NCBI RefSeq assembly: GCF_014773265.1
Contig: NZ_JACWMY010000002.1
Coordinates: forward strand, 558,001 to 622,000
Reading direction: 5' to 3'
Length of the DNA: 64,000 bases
From: Mucilaginibacter pankratovii
GTDB lineage: Bacteria > Bacteroidota > Bacteroidia > Sphingobacteriales > Sphingobacteriaceae
The notes beneath the pieces are model-generated. The model was not told the origin of the DNA. It did not search any database and worked only from the letters and a program-made list of their open reading frames with translations. This document shows positions 19,712-23,824 of the stretch, piece by piece. Numbering within the stretch: position 1 is the stretch's first letter; each line of letters opens with the position of its first letter. The translations under genes were made by a program, and so were the position numbers.

Positions 19712-20389
19712 ATGAATAAGAAAACAACCGCTATGGCAACGCTAACTGTTGCGCGACGTAAAGTGGATGAACTGCTTGCGCTGAAAAAAATCACAGTAGA
19801 AAATGTGCAGGAGCTCACCGGTGCCGAAAGGGAAATATTCCAGGAAAGGCTTACCCAAATATTAGCAGACTCGAAAGGCGTGGAACGAGACAACCTTTTA
19901 GCTAAAATAGAACTGATCCTCCCCGACAGTACAAAAAACGACGTGTGGGAACATAACCATACGGTGATCCGCAGCGCCATTTCGGATTTTATGCGCCAGT
20001 ATGGTGTTATGCCCACTAAAAGCGCCATAGCCGAAGAAACCGGCCTCAGCCGGCAAACGGTGACCAAACATTTTAAAGAATACAAATCGCACCCGGAATT
20101 TATAGCCGAAGCCGAGCAATTTAAATTTATGAGCCACGAAATGCTGGCCAGCGTATTTAAGTTTGCCCGTAACGGCAACATGCGGGCCGCCAGGCTTTAT
20201 TTTGAAATGGTTGGCGCCATCAACAAACCCGGCACCAACACCGTTGTAACCGAGCAGAAGAACTACATCCAAATAAACAACACCATCCTGAGCCAGGAAA
20301 ACCTAAAGCAGTTAACCGCCGAACAGCTGCTACAGATTGAGAATATTGTTAGGGATAGGGTGATGGAGTTGCCGGTAGTTGTTAGGTAA
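19712..20389 (+). CDS. Orphan helix-turn-helix protein resembling phage terminase small subunit/phBC6A51 type
   Basis: A 225-residue soluble protein with no signal or membrane segment. A helix-turn-helix is visible at about residues 98-125 (KSAIAEETGLSRQTVTKHFKEY). It is followed by a helical stretch FKFARNGNMRAARLYFEMVG, like the part of phBC6A51-type and terminase-small-like phage proteins that measures copy or unit growth. No large terminase, portal or other phage gene lies nearby, so if the resemblance is real this is a domesticated or stranded gene. Upstream sit AT-rich repeats that may be operators. The alternative is a stand-alone transcription regulator. The HTH is fairly sure; the phage link is a guess from pattern. 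Confidence 0.5.
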   Translation: MNKKTTAMATLTVARRKVDELLALKKITVENVQELTGAEREIFQERLTQILADSKGVERDNLLAKIELILPDSTKNDVWEHNHTVIRSAISDFMRQYGVMPTKSAIAEETGLSRQTVTKHFKEYKSHPEFIAEAEQFKFMSHEMLASVFKFARNGNMRAARLYFEMVGAINKPGTNTVVTEQKNYIQINNTILSQENLKQLTAEQLLQIENIVRDRVMELPVVVR

Positions 20390-20529
20390 TTTCTCCACTA
20401 CTAACAAAGGCCGGTAATTACAAGATTATTTATAATGTGTTGTGCGATTGGAGAGTGATATAAATGGCATAAAAAGTTGTGCATTATATTGAAACTTGAT
20501 ATATTTAGTTATCAATTAGCTCCCACATC

Positions 20530-21612
20530 ATGCCGAAGACCAAACCAGATACAAGGTTCGCTGCGCTTTTATTTTTATTGATAATGAATGCCGCGGTCGC
20601 ATTTGGCCAGGCAGAGAACTACCCATTGCCGGACAAAGTAGCCCGAGATTTTAAAGATCTATTGAACCGCCCGATGGTGGACCCGAAGCCCCGGTTCGGC
20701 AACGTAAGCATGGATACGATACAGGTAGATACCGGGAGTATCTATACCGAAGCCAACGAACGCATGCCGGTGCTTATTTACAAACCGGTAATAGCCGGGC
20801 AAACCAGGTTCCCGGCGGCGATATTCCTGCATGGCACCGGCGGCACTAAGGATCAGGGCAACATCAAGGCCATATTTATCAAACTGGCCAAATTGGGCAT
20901 TATGGGTGTAGCTATTGACGCACGTTACCATGGCCAGCGCATACCCGGCGGCGCTCACGGCAGTAAAGAATATACCGAGGCCGCTTACCAGGCCTTTAAA
21001 ACCAACGACCAAACACACCATGCTTATCCTTTTTTGTATGATACCTCTTATGATCTGTGGCGATTGGTGGATTACCTGGTCACCCGCCCTGACGTTAAAG
21101 CCGACCGTATCGGTATGGGCGGCATATCCATGGGTGGGGTGGAGACCTGGATGGCGGCATCGGTAGATATAAGGATACACGCGGCGGTGCTGGGTATTGC
21201 CGTACAAAGCTTTAAATGGAGCCTGGAGAATAACAAATGGCAAGACCGTGCCGGCACTATTGGCGACGCCCATAAAAAAGCCGCCCATGACCTGGGCGAT
21301 AGCACCGTTAATCAGGCCAATGTAAAAGCCGTATGGGACAAGATACTGCCCGGCATAACCGGCGAGTTTGATTGCCCGTCAATGATACGGCTTTTCGCGC
21401 CGCGGCCTTTACTGATATTAAGTAAGGACAAGGACACTAACAACCCATACCCCGGCGCACAGATCGGTTTCGTTACGGTAACCGACGCCTACAAGGCCAG
21501 GAACGCCACCGACAAACTGGATATAGTTGTACAGCCCAACCTGGGCCATGTTTTTAACGCGAAGGATGCTGATCTTACAATAGCGTTCTTTGCAAAATAT
21601 TTGTTGGAATAA
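20530..21612 (+). CDS. Secreted alpha/beta-hydrolase (dienelactone-hydrolase/acetyl-esterase-like)
   Basis: A 360-residue exported serine hydrolase with a type I signal peptide ending near AVAFGQ. The alpha/beta fold shows an oxyanion loop FLHGTGG (about residue 100), nucleophile elbow GGISMGG with Ser180, and an acidic residue in LLILSKDKD. The catalytic His is in NLGHVF near the C terminus. The arrangement is that of prolyl-oligopeptidase-like/acetyl-xylan-esterase-type enzymes. The substrate is unknown; deacylation of a plant or fungal polymer would suit the surroundings. It is monocistronic, 140 bases after the HTH gene. Confidence 0.8.
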   Translation: MPKTKPDTRFAALLFLLIMNAAVAFGQAENYPLPDKVARDFKDLLNRPMVDPKPRFGNVSMDTIQVDTGSIYTEANERMPVLIYKPVIAGQTRFPAAIFLHGTGGTKDQGNIKAIFIKLAKLGIMGVAIDARYHGQRIPGGAHGSKEYTEAAYQAFKTNDQTHHAYPFLYDTSYDLWRLVDYLVTRPDVKADRIGMGGISMGGVETWMAASVDIRIHAAVLGIAVQSFKWSLENNKWQDRAGTIGDAHKKAAHDLGDSTVNQANVKAVWDKILPGITGEFDCPSMIRLFAPRPLLILSKDKDTNNPYPGAQIGFVTVTDAYKARNATDKLDIVVQPNLGHVFNAKDADLTIAFFAKYLLE

Positions 21613-21866
21613 CAGTTCACTAAACGCTAAAATCAATATATTAAAGAATATTTAACTCCAATTTAGCCTGTGGTCGATGTTATCACCGCACCACAGACCG
21701 GATCCGATACTCAATTGTATAGAGCAATAATGTAAAATTCCGCTGTCCTTGGTGTTGTCTTCAACGACAAACGAGATGCCCCTCAGTAGCCTAATATTAA
21801 ATCTTTCAATTTCTTTACAGCACCCGGTTTTGTTGGTCACAAGACTAACAAAGGGCAGAACGCCCA
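21613..21866. other. Non-coding gap after the hydrolase, with a 26-bp palindrome
   Basis: About 250 bases with no supportable gene. A leftward GTG-started frame of 71 codons exists but begins inside repeat DNA. At 21828-21853 lies TTTGTTGGTC-ACAA-GACTAACAAA, a near-perfect palindrome whose arms are the same as the ends of the longer elements at 21994-22212 and 22755-22970. Confidence 0.5.
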
Positions 21867-21975
21867 CGTCATGCCGAATTTATTTCGGCACCCCACCTGC
21901 AAAGTAGCGACGTGCAAATCGTTTAGCATATCGGCGACCCGTCCTGTGGGGTCCTGAAACAAGTTCAGGATGACG
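21867..21975. repeat. 109-bp MITE-like palindromic element
   Basis: The ends form terminal inverted repeats of about 30 bp: CGTCATGCCGAATTTATTTC at the left and, in reverse complement, CGTCATCCTGAACTTGTTTC at the right, both running into a CCCCAC tract. The middle (about 21897-21945) carries no gene. Only one copy was noticed in the window. The form is that of short non-autonomous or REP-like intergenic repeats of Bacteroidota. Confidence 0.65.
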
Positions 21976-21993
21976 TTTAGGTGTCTACCGTAC

Positions 21994-22212
21994 CTTTGTT
22001 GATCATAAGACCATAGGTATGTTCGGAAGATTATTTTTGTTCCCCTCTCGAGAGGGGGCGCGCGGGTTTGTGTAGTGGCGGGGTGTGTTAGCCGTCATGC
22101 AATCACGAAATGCATCGGGCAGAAACACACCCCTGCACCCCTCTCAAGAGGGGAATCGCACATCCCTCCGCTTTTTATTGTTTGAACATTGTTAGTCACA
22201 AGACCAACAAAG
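21994..22212. repeat. MITE-like element, copy 1 (left of elaA)
   Basis: About 219 bp bounded by CTTTGTTGATCATAAG and CACAAGACCAACAAAG. Inside is a second inverted pair, GTTCCCCTCTCGAGAGGGGG and CCTCTCAAGAGGGGAATCGC. The same order of blocks recurs at 22755-22970. No transposase is encoded. The element ends about 57 bases before the elaA start codon and so forms part of its upstream region. Confidence 0.75.
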
Positions 22213-22268
22213 GCACGTAAAGGGCATGTTAGCAGATTTTCATTAATTTCGCCCCAAAACATCTCCTC

Positions 22269-22721
22269 ATGCACCTCACCCATAAAACCCTCCCCTTCCA
22301 CCAGCTTAACGTTGATGAGCTATACCAACTCCTCAGCCTGCGCAGCGAGGTATTTGTGGTAGAACAAAACTGTGTGTTTTTAGACCAGGACGATAAGGAT
22401 CAGCAATGCCATCACCTGCTGTTGTATGTGGATAACAAACTTGCTGCATATAGCCGGTTGGTGCCTGCCGGTTTATCTTATTCAGAACCGTCCATTGGGC
22501 GGGTGGTTACTTCACCTGCTTTCAGGGGCAGTGGATTGGGCCGTAAGTTGATGGAGCTTTCTATACAAAGCTGCGAAACGCTATTTGGCCCGCAGACTAT
22601 TCGTATAGGCGCGCAAACCTATGCGCTGCTGTTTTACCGCTCGCTCGGCTTTGTGGAAGATGGCGACCGTTACGACGAAGACGGGATAGAACACATCGAA
22701 ATGGTAAGGAAACCCGATTAA
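22269..22721 (+). CDS. elaA: ElaA-family GNAT N-acetyltransferase
   Basis: A 150-residue acyl-CoA-dependent acetyltransferase. The opening FHQLNVDELYQLLSLRSEVF with VVEQNCVF, the acetyl-CoA loop region IGRVVTSPAFRGSGLGRKLM (R/Q-x-x-G-x-G/A form) and the ending YDEDGIEHIEMVRK align well by memory with E. coli ElaA along the full length. The acceptor substrate of ElaA proteins is not well established. The gene stands alone, boxed between two copies of a palindromic repeat, and is followed by a hairpin seven bases after its stop. Confidence 0.9.
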   Translation: MHLTHKTLPFHQLNVDELYQLLSLRSEVFVVEQNCVFLDQDDKDQQCHHLLLYVDNKLAAYSRLVPAGLSYSEPSIGRVVTSPAFRGSGLGRKLMELSIQSCETLFGPQTIRIGAQTYALLFYRSLGFVEDGDRYDEDGIEHIEMVRKPD

Positions 22722-22727
22722 AAAACA

Positions 22728-22759
22728 CAAACCCGGCTGCCGTTCGGCAACCGGGTTTG
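22728..22759. terminator. GC-rich hairpin after elaA, fused to repeat copy 2
   Basis: CAAACCCGG-C-TGCCG pairs with CGGCA-A-CCGGGTTTG around a minimal loop, seven bases after the elaA stop. There is no T-run to the right, so termination on the + strand is plausible but unproved. The right arm overlaps the first bases of the repeat at 22755. Confidence 0.5.
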
Positions 22760-22970
22760 TTGGTCATAAGGCCACACCTATCGGAAGATTTTTTAGTTCC
22801 CCTCTTGAGAGGGGGCGCGCCGGTTTGTGTGGTGGCAGGGGTGTGTTTGCCACGATGCAATAGCGTAAAGCATGGTGCAGAACACACCCCTCCGCTCCTC
22901 TCAAGAGGGGAATCGCGCATGGCCCTGGCTTTTTTAATCTTCCGACCCTATAGTCGCAAGACCAACAAAG
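22755..22970. repeat. MITE-like element, copy 2 (right of elaA)
   Basis: About 216 bp with terminal inverted repeats of about 35 bp: GTTTGTTGGTCATAAGGCCA with TCGGAAGATT at the left mirrors AATCTTCCGA with AGTCGCAAGACCAACAAAG at the right. The internal pair is GTTCCCCTCTTGAGAGGGGG and CCTCTCAAGAGGGGAATCGC. It is the same type as 21994-22212, clearly homologous but not identical, in the same orientation. Open frames through it are repeat artefacts. Confidence 0.78.
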
Positions 22971-22978
22971 TCGATGAG

Positions 22979-23075
22979 TTTTGAATATCGAATAATGAAT
23001 TTTGAATATCGAACGCCGAAGTGCTTTTCACTTTACTTCATTATTCGATGTGGACATTCGGTGTTCGATATTAAA
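22979..23075. repeat. Third palindromic intergenic element (GAATATCGAA type)
   Basis: A left arm at 22979-23022 (TTTGAATATCGAATAATGAA, then TTTGAATATCGAACGCCGAA) is the imperfect inverse of a right arm at 23032-23072, across a nine-base spacer. The arms also hold direct repeats of GAATATCGAA. It abuts repeat copy 2 and ends nine bases from the stop of the GH16-like gene, so it may act as its terminator. Confidence 0.6.
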
Positions 23076-23083
23076 ATATCACG

Positions 23084-23824
23084 CTATTTTCCCGTAAACT
23101 TAAAGCTATGGATTACCACTTCCACCGGTTTGTCATCGGTTGGGGCGAGCCCTTTAAATAACCAAAGGTTTAAGAAAGCCGGCATAGCAACGCTACTGAT
23201 GGATACCGCAGGGCTTTTAAACTCCTTTGTTAAAAACAGGTTGTCGCGGTTATCACCGTCTACGTGGCCGTACAGGGTTTTAAACGTAACACTTTCGGGC
23301 GTACGGATGAACCTTTGCGTAGTGTAGGTACCATTCGGTGAAGTAAACTCGGTAGAATAGCTGGTATGCCTGGGCGGATCGCCCGCTTTTGGGTAAACGG
23401 TGTAGTTTAAGTTTGGATAGGCGCTGTTACCCCATCGTGCAAATTCAATATCCATTTCGTCCCTTGCATCAACACCCGAATAGTTGAACAATCCCAGCAC
23501 TATGTTCTTATCAAACTTATCCAGGTCGGCATCCATCTGCCATTGGTAAGTGCCCATGCCGAAGCTTTCGGTACTGCTGATCTCGGCACATTCCCAGCGG
23601 CCATTAGCGGCATTCTTGCTTATTTTAAGGTGCAGCCAGCCGCTCCCGTCAACCCATACATTACTGGCCGACCAATAATTCGGCCCCGGCCCTACCTGCT
23701 CGGCAGGTTCCTTTACGTTCCAGGTATAGCCGCTCCATTTAATGGTTTTTGTTTGGGCGGAAACGTTGCTATGGGCGGATAATAAAAACAATACAAATGC
23801 CGCCCCGAATAATCTTCTCATCAT
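23084..23824 (-). CDS. GH16-like secreted beta-glycanase
   Basis: A 246-residue exported protein (signal peptide ending near NVSAQ) made of one jelly-roll. The motif RDEMDIEFARWG gives Glu123, Asp125 and Glu127, the E-x-D-x-E form of GH16 enzymes without the beta-bulge seen in laminarinases (which have E-x-D-x-x-E, as in the two enzymes of the first locus). WVDGSGWLHLKI and FGMGTYQWQMDAD are typical strands before the active site. The specificity is unknown: beta-1,3-1,4-glucan, galactan or a transglycosylase role are all possible. It is the last gene of the sigma/FecR-linked operon, 27 bases after the GH18-like gene. Confidence 0.75.
   Translation of the reverse strand: MMRRLFGAAFVLFLLSAHSNVSAQTKTIKWSGYTWNVKEPAEQVGPGPNYWSASNVWVDGSGWLHLKISKNAANGRWECAEISSTESFGMGTYQWQMDADLDKFDKNIVLGLFNYSGVDARDEMDIEFARWGNSAYPNLNYTVYPKAGDPPRHTSYSTEFTSPNGTYTTQRFIRTPESVTFKTLYGHVDGDNRDNLFLTKEFKSPAVSISSVAMPAFLNLWLFKGLAPTDDKPVEVVIHSFKFTGK

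Follow-up and report, generated by a model that had tools for sequence, protein, structure and literature searches.

Repeats flanking an elaA-like gene as probable REP-like hairpins split by MITEs of an IS4-family element

The two 217-bp repeats that flank an elaA-like gene in the window (the whole 64-kb stretch of DNA that was analyzed) are very probably REP-like hairpins, each split at its axis by a MITE of a hairpin-preferring IS4-family element, with elaA as a resident gene. In the proposed course of events the hairpin would have come first and the MITE second: an ancestral hairpin, TTTGTTGGTC-RYAA-GACCAACAAA, would have been split at its symmetry axis by insertion of a MITE of ~180 bp, putatively an IS4-family insertion sequence reduced to a shell without transposase, with ends CATAGGTGTTCGGAAGATT. 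We infer that the MITE was moved in trans by an IS4-type transposase that would prefer sites centred in palindromes, insert at a site of ~10 bp, often GT-N6-AC, and duplicate that site. The interior of the MITE is a dispersed palindromic repeat, here called family A (CCCCTCT...AGAGGGG), and elaA lies by chance between two landing sites. The ends, the duplications, the hairpin preference, the differing cores and the lack of both repeats in the sister genome come directly from sequence comparison. The features of the locus are as follows.

20530-21612, hydrolase gene, in a stretch (~20370-22240) without counterpart in the sister genome
21829-21852, + strand, intact REP-like hairpin (TTTGTTGGTCACAAGACTAACAAA), a MITE-free landing site; close relative dispersed in 37/61 genomes
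21995-22001, + strand, copy 1 split hairpin, left arm TTTGTTG
22002-22011, + strand, copy 1 left target duplication ATCATAAGAC; 8/10 identity with the right duplication
22012-22194, + strand, MITE copy 1, 183 bp, with well kept left end CATAGGTATGTTCGGAAGATT, family-A palindromic core and decayed right end
22040-22155, + strand, copy 1 family-A core, CCCCTCTCGAGAGGGG ... CCCCTCTCAAGAGGGG, with nested GGGGTGTGTT/AACACACCCC
22195-22204, + strand, copy 1 right target duplication GTCACAAGAC
22205-22211, + strand, copy 1 split hairpin, right arm CAACAAA
22269-22721, + strand, elaA-like GNAT acetyltransferase, 150 aa, resident gene
22727-22760, + strand, terminator-like hairpin directly 3' of elaA, common to the sister genome
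22756-22762, + strand, copy 2 split hairpin, left arm TTTGTTG
22763-22772, + strand, copy 2 left target duplication GTCATAAGGC; 7/10 identity with the right duplication
22773-22952, + strand, MITE copy 2, 180 bp, family-A core, ends partly decayed
22953-22962, + strand, copy 2 right target duplication GTCGCAAGAC
22963-22969, + strand, copy 2 split hairpin, right arm CAACAAA

Two homologous, like-oriented repeats on either side of elaA had been predicted from the sequence, and this was confirmed with aligned blocks 757-758 bp apart; both the outer arms and the inner CCCCTCT/AGAGGGG pair are present in the repeats. The bare version of the outer arms that had also been proposed is there, as an intact hairpin at 21829-21852. 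What did not hold was the view of each 217-bp repeat as one element, as the mobile part begins 17 bp inward of each side and the arms are target. The 3' end of the terminator-like hairpin of elaA overlaps the split hairpin of copy 2. A search with TTTGTTGGTCNNAAG at <=2 mismatches gave 7 matches in the 64-kb window, 6 of them at this locus (shuffle mean 2.29, with 0/100 shuffles reaching 7), and CCCCTCTCNAGAGGGG at <=2 mismatches gave 8 matches (4 places, both strands) compared to 0.03 expected. Rfam gave no match at gathering score in 20200-23300.

The window copies and their decay

The mobile parts at 22012-22194 and 22773-22952 were 76.7% identical over 176 aligned columns, and each of them (183 and 180 bp, shorter than ~0.5 kb) is without a transposase gene inside. 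When the flanks are joined they read TTTGTTG-ATCATAAGAC-CAACAAA for copy 1 and TTTGTTG-GTCATAAGGC-CAACAAA for copy 2. With end positions chosen before the duplications and ends were tested, the copy 1 duplications were 8/10 identical, a level reached by random 10-mer pairs from the window at a frequency of 0.0007, and the copy 2 duplications were 7/10 identical, reached by random pairs at 0.005. The score of the copy 1 left end was reached by 0/20000 random 23-mers, the copy 1 right end was unrecognisable on its own in this test, and the ends of copy 2 gave P = 0.011 (left) and P = 0.0025 (right). Similarity to the ends of the autonomous element described below (L112) is clear at the left of copy 1, weak at both ends of copy 2 and not seen at the right of copy 1. 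Two elements that share the core, and whose ends are exact on one side and off by 1 mismatch on the other (L126 and L154), were 75-79% identical to the window copies.

Used as queries against this genome, the repeats gave 21 and 25 matches, most of which fall in the CCCCTCT...AGAGGGG core, and copy 1 found matches in 20/41 genomes searched, all but one of the 20 within the genus. Among the matches listed in this genome, both arms were reached only by the two copies.

Outer arms and a dispersed REP-like hairpin

The outer arms TTTGTTGGTC/GACCAACAAA correspond to the halves of a split REP-like hairpin, of which the copy at 21829-21852 (folding z = -3.57) is unsplit. With TTTGTTGGTCNNAAGACCAACAAA at <=3 mismatches, 6 rows at 4 places were found in this genome, one of them within copy 1, and none with the reversed control. 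The exact pattern TTGTTGGTSNNNNSACCAACAA was found in 37/61 congeneric genomes at 0-26 copies each (5 in this genome), and its reversed control had 0 matches across all 61. Close neighbours were counted in 18 stretches that were picked, among the matches listed, since hairpins stood close together there; these held 18 pairs <150 bp apart, 15/18 with inverted loops at 45-138 bp spacing, and among the inverted-loop pairs 11/15 had GCC outside left and GGC outside right. The dispersal of the hairpin and its frequent occurrence in inverted pairs indicate that the arms are a dispersed REP-like hairpin, frequently in REPIN-like pairs. Measured against the usual description of a REP, a 20-40-bp palindrome in many copies, the hairpin is dispersed but has only 0-26 exact copies per genome; REP sequences are described as usually exceeding 100 copies per genome (PMC2817692).

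Most of the congeneric genomes encode RAYT-type Y1 transposases (PF01797 matches in 53/61). The best PF01797 match from each of 30 genomes was used to scan RAYT loci for hairpins, and hairpins at <=2 mismatches were found near 1/30. This locus (L231) had two hairpins at 2 mismatches and two at 3, and at two others (L218 and L229) a single match at 3 mismatches was seen, of the kind that chance would give. One genome (G055) with 15 hairpins had no PF01797 match at E 1e-5. A RAYT was rejected as the mover of the hairpin, as among the 30 loci only L231 had such hairpins; a link within a particular RAYT clade may still exist. Separately, L251-L263 are REPIN-like inverted hairpin pairs with outer GCC/GGC tags, for which the RAYT scan gave no mover.

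Ends, target duplications and an IS4-family parent

Reading inward from the arms in the other copies of this genome we found a second conserved boundary, ATAGGTGTTCGGAAGATT, with 15 matches in this genome at <=3 mismatches compared to 2 for the reversed control. An exact ATAGGTGTTCGGAAGATT scan of public genomes returned 75 stretches, 63 of them titled Mucilaginibacter. Paired ends usually enclose 130-430 bp, and the pair at L112 (Mucilaginibacter sp. L196) encloses 1,270 bp, a complete IS4-family element with a 397-aa transposase that is flanked on both sides by GTGGGGACAC, a duplication splitting TTTGTTGGTG...CACCAACAAA. The parent transposase is assigned to the IS4 family by model and motif: it scored 145 bits against NCBIfam NF033592 transpos_IS4_1 (cut-off 115) and 60.2 against PF01609 (cut-off 23), and it has DDE spacers of 74 and 106 with Y(2)R(3)E(6)K, the family being described by spacers of 60-110 and 100-150 and Y(2)R(3)E(6)K (PMC2266710). 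A search of solved structures with this transposase gave none at E 0.001. Related transposase pieces (20 to 329 aa, 75-100% identity) lie beside further ends at L124, L125, L132, L162 and L174, and the L112 transposase found relatives in 3/61 genomes.

The bases next to the ends of L111 and L129 indicate a duplication of 10 bp, with one further base per side belonging to the element. End pairs were defined by one exact end, a partner at <=4 mismatches 60-1500 bp away and 31-bp flanks on both sides; this set (n=41) excludes copies at contig ends. A 10-bp direct repeat, read in one fixed frame, was kept at >=9/10 in 22/41 pairs, while 1000 re-pairings averaged 1.7 and never exceeded 7; the ends behind these counts are not independent, several coming from single genomes (X5P1, L196, RYN_326). 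The other 19/41 pairs, without a >=9/10 duplication in the fixed frame, include some chance pairs (two Kiritimatiellae loci, L149 and L151) and L154, which is merely shifted by one base. Some pairs have inverted flanks, not explained by direct duplication; these were seen at L117, L141, L170 and L171 and at C28:289467/289866 in this genome, and recombination between two insertions may be one possibility for them. MITEs with inverted flanks look as if placed between the halves of an inverted hairpin pair.

The L112 transposase, a query that does find relatives elsewhere, had no counterpart in this genome at E 0.01. All 15 end-like sites here are 1500 bp or more away from any contig end, making it unlikely that an autonomous copy was collapsed at a contig break, and the autonomous element has probably been lost from this genome. 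The window copies are decayed MITEs, old as judged by their sequence, and with the transposase match missing they look like relics. The original prediction had suggested looking for target duplications and a transposase with matching ends; candidates for the former are the 8/10 and 7/10 repeats, and the latter was found in L112, not in this genome.

A related IS4-type element was observed at three loci of another genome (G013; L176, L181 and L183), with a transposase 45% identical, ends CACAGGTGTTGGGAAGAG and palindromic flanks, CTCGGC...GCCGAG.

Insertion at the centres of palindromes

Of 77 exact ends with flank, 40 adjoin the half-hairpin TTGTTGGTGNNNNCACC at <=3 mismatches, compared to 0.0005 in shuffled flanks and 1/7,654 positions elsewhere in the same loci. 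The other 37/77 do not adjoin the TTGTTGGTGNNNNCACC hairpin, and some of those lie within other palindromes. Unpaired ends passed a similar half-hairpin test in 22/33 cases. When empty sites were reconstructed, 15/41 paired at >=9/12 positions around the axis, and mean axis pairing was 6.5 vs 5.0 with halves mixed among sites; as the mixed halves share the motif, this palindromy control is conservative. Strain X5P1 has five copies in another palindrome, ACTTTTTGT...ACAAAAAGT (L106, L109, L137, L156, L164). In related genomes the same mobile part also lies between other arms with perfect 10-bp duplications, for example GTATCAAGAC, GTGCTTAAAC and GTTTGGATGC, and this variation between insertions indicates that the arms belong to the target. 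At the elaA locus three REP-like hairpins stand within 1.2 kb.

elaA and the sister genome

The MITE of copy 1 ends 74 bp upstream of the elaA start codon. The elaA protein scored 112 bits with the ElaA-type model PRK10314, below the cut-off of 171. It had a match in 61/61 genomes at E 0.001, of which 22/61 were close (E 1e-49 or better, 58-100% identity) and the others weak. Eight elaA neighbourhoods were fetched, and the only syntenic one was that of the sister genome G059, where elaA is 91% identical (about 88% over DNA), its gene order is preserved and both repeats are missing. Where copy 2 and its hairpin follow the terminator-like hairpin in this genome, the sister has other sequence immediately after it. 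Both the MITE of copy 2 and the hairpin around it are absent there, so no empty hairpin is seen at that site.

As the sister keeps elaA without the repeats, elaA is not cargo, and this candidate was rejected. The refuting condition originally named, elaA without repeats at the same locus in all relatives, was checked in that one syntenic relative, where elaA stands without them; the other 7/8 neighbourhoods aligned at the DNA level only at elaA. A joint absence of elaA and both repeats, as would be expected at a related empty site of a composite transposon, was not found, as the sister retains elaA. Of the two layouts originally suggested, a composite mobile unit carrying elaA is not supported, given the sister and the separate hairpin and decayed duplication of each copy. 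The other, a hot spot at which a dispersed element lands by a transposase acting in trans, agrees with what look like hairpin-preferring IS4-family MITEs at a locus with three hairpins in <1.2 kb and a transposase encoded elsewhere.

Cores carried by the shell

Clustering of the cores of 38 MITE-sized elements by blastn gave clusters of 16, 11, 2 and 2 and seven singletons. One shell therefore holds palindromic cores without detected mutual relation. The cluster of 16 includes two of the three elements with the CCCCTCT core of the window, beside a CCCTCCC variant; the motif classes were defined after inspecting the cores. The CCCCTCT/AGAGGGG core is one of several palindromic cores found in this shell. 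Shell, core and a direct repeat occur together in L126 (repeat 8/10) and in L154 (10/10 when shifted by one base), from which it follows that shell and core can be transposed together. In this genome the family-A core occurs with the shell and also, among the core loci scanned, without it at nine (no end at <=5 mismatches: L011, L013, L015, L017, L020, L021, L022, L026, L027), of which L017 and L026 adjoin another kind of end. A third repeat (TAATAGCCCATCATTAGACAG...GTTCCGCTGGAACG) interrupts the family-A palindrome at CTCTTGAGAG; this is seen at C10:79049/79261 and C34:191384/191595 (L012, L028, L029, L031), with direct flanks at C34 and inverted flanks at C10.

A broader reading, which we offer tentatively and hold to be possible rather than probable, is that palindromes in this genus serve as both cargo and docking site. 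The IS4-type shell would carry interchangeable, mutually unrelated palindromic cores, which other elements would split at the axis in their turn; REP-like repeats would then spread in MITE shells and not by RAYT.

Alternative explanations

The like orientation of the two copies on both sides of elaA is what a composite transposon moving the gene as a unit would give; since G059 has elaA in unchanged gene order but neither copy, and since each copy has a hairpin and a duplication of its own, this is extremely improbable. A single 217-bp MITE with TTTGTTGGTC/GACCAACAAA as its own terminal inverted repeats would account for the almost identical arms of the two window copies and for the joint loss of hairpin and MITE at the copy 2 site of the sister. 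It has little probability given that related genomes have the mobile part between other arms with perfect 10-bp duplications, that intact MITE-free hairpins are dispersed and that both arms occur in no further copy among the matches listed in this genome.

Two further explanations place the mobile unit elsewhere. The inner CCCCTCT/AGAGGGG palindrome could be the mobile unit, REPIN-like and perhaps moved by a RAYT, having entered incidental shells secondarily. The nine scanned core loci without a shell and the frequency of RAYT-type Y1 transposases in the genus (PF01797, 53/61) are in keeping with this, and the joint presence of shell, core and direct repeat in L126 and L154 argues against it; we consider it unlikely. 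It is also very doubtful that the hydrolase was cargo, with the stretch from ~20370 to 22240 (hydrolase, bare hairpin, the repeat called family B and copy 1) arriving as a unit. The sister genome lacks this stretch, a remnant resembling the hairpin, CTAACAAAGGCC, is present at 20401 and the hydrolase is patchy, being found in 12/61 genomes including this one. Against this, the sister retains at the junction a piece like the right half of family B, so that deletion in the sister is as likely indicated as insertion here, and no matched ends or duplication were noticed around the 1.9-kb stretch, for which the search was not systematic. Splitting of resident hairpins by MITEs of an IS4-family element is the reading we retain.

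Comparison with known systems

IS231-type mobile insertion cassettes and other loaded MITE shells are transposase-less IS ends carrying other DNA; compared to these cassettes, the load here is non-coding palindromic repeats and not a gene. An IS4-family insertion at the palindromy axis of REPs with direct repeats, as here, has been described for ISRm22 of Sinorhizobium meliloti, where some copies have mismatched repeats that its authors ascribed to possible recombination between copies (PMC1525189). ISRm22, which is placed in the IS4 subgroup IS4Sa (PMC2266710), is described as IS copies in one alphaproteobacterium with 6-bp repeats (PMC1525189), whereas most of the elements here are MITEs, their hosts are Mucilaginibacter-like bacteria, the repeats measure 10 bp and the target palindromes belong to more than one family. 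In Table 1 of PMC2266710, IS4Sa has ends CA------T, a length of 1150-1750 bp, repeats of 8-10 bp and YREK. L112 matches these table features, by which it was judged rather than by a tree, with CA------T ends, 1270 bp, 10-bp repeats and YREK; unlike IS4Sa, the window copies have no transposase. The short hairpins, often in inverted pairs, resemble the REPINs and BIMEs described in PMC3116915 and PMC2817692, but those are described with a RAYT, and here no link to RAYT genes was found (hairpins near 1/30 RAYT loci scanned).

No report of such a MITE family in Mucilaginibacter was found in the literature searched, whose coverage left most subscription journals outside. As far as these sources go, an IS4 element at a REP axis is already known from ISRm22, and the elements here differ in being a family of MITEs whose palindromic cores are interchangeable. 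Two decayed copies next to a resident gene are in themselves nothing unusual, and the family around them is of moderate interest. In place of a possible gene-carrying composite transposon there is a simpler rule, that an IS4-type element and its MITEs prefer the centres of short palindromes, and this rule would account for the box-like look of repeats with palindromic arms. The ends, target and duplication provide a means to name unannotated repeats in Mucilaginibacter-like genomes, and a shell with varying cores would be a testable route by which REP-like repeats could spread without RAYT.

Other repeats in this genome and genus

The family B repeat, CGTCATGCCGAAT...CAGGATGACG, lies at 21869-21976. 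A 400-bp query with a family B relative gave 57 matches in this genome, most to family B and with several places counted on both strands. Family B starts with CGTC, a start in common with a class of palindromic repeats described from five phyla, Bacteroidetes among them (PMC3733652).

A second insertion sequence, with ends CATAGCCGTTAACTTAAGGG, was observed on contigs C1, C3, C4, C7, C8, C9, C16, C18, C22 and C34 of this genome (G000), in each case ~100 bp from the contig end; as the contigs break off within the element, its transposase is out of view. Its ends fit the IS231 end consensus, CAT-------AA--TAA, given in Table 1 of PMC2266710. Nine of ten exact ends adjoin a half-hairpin like GGTGNNNNCAC or TTGTTGGTG, and the tenth (C34) adjoins GGTGGATATAC. 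Elements with ends CATAGCCGTCAACTTAAGG and an AACGG...CCGTT-type interior were seen at L017, L026, L294 and L295, where they sit in palindromes like CTCTTGAGAG or CTCCTTGGGGAG, another palindrome split by another shell.
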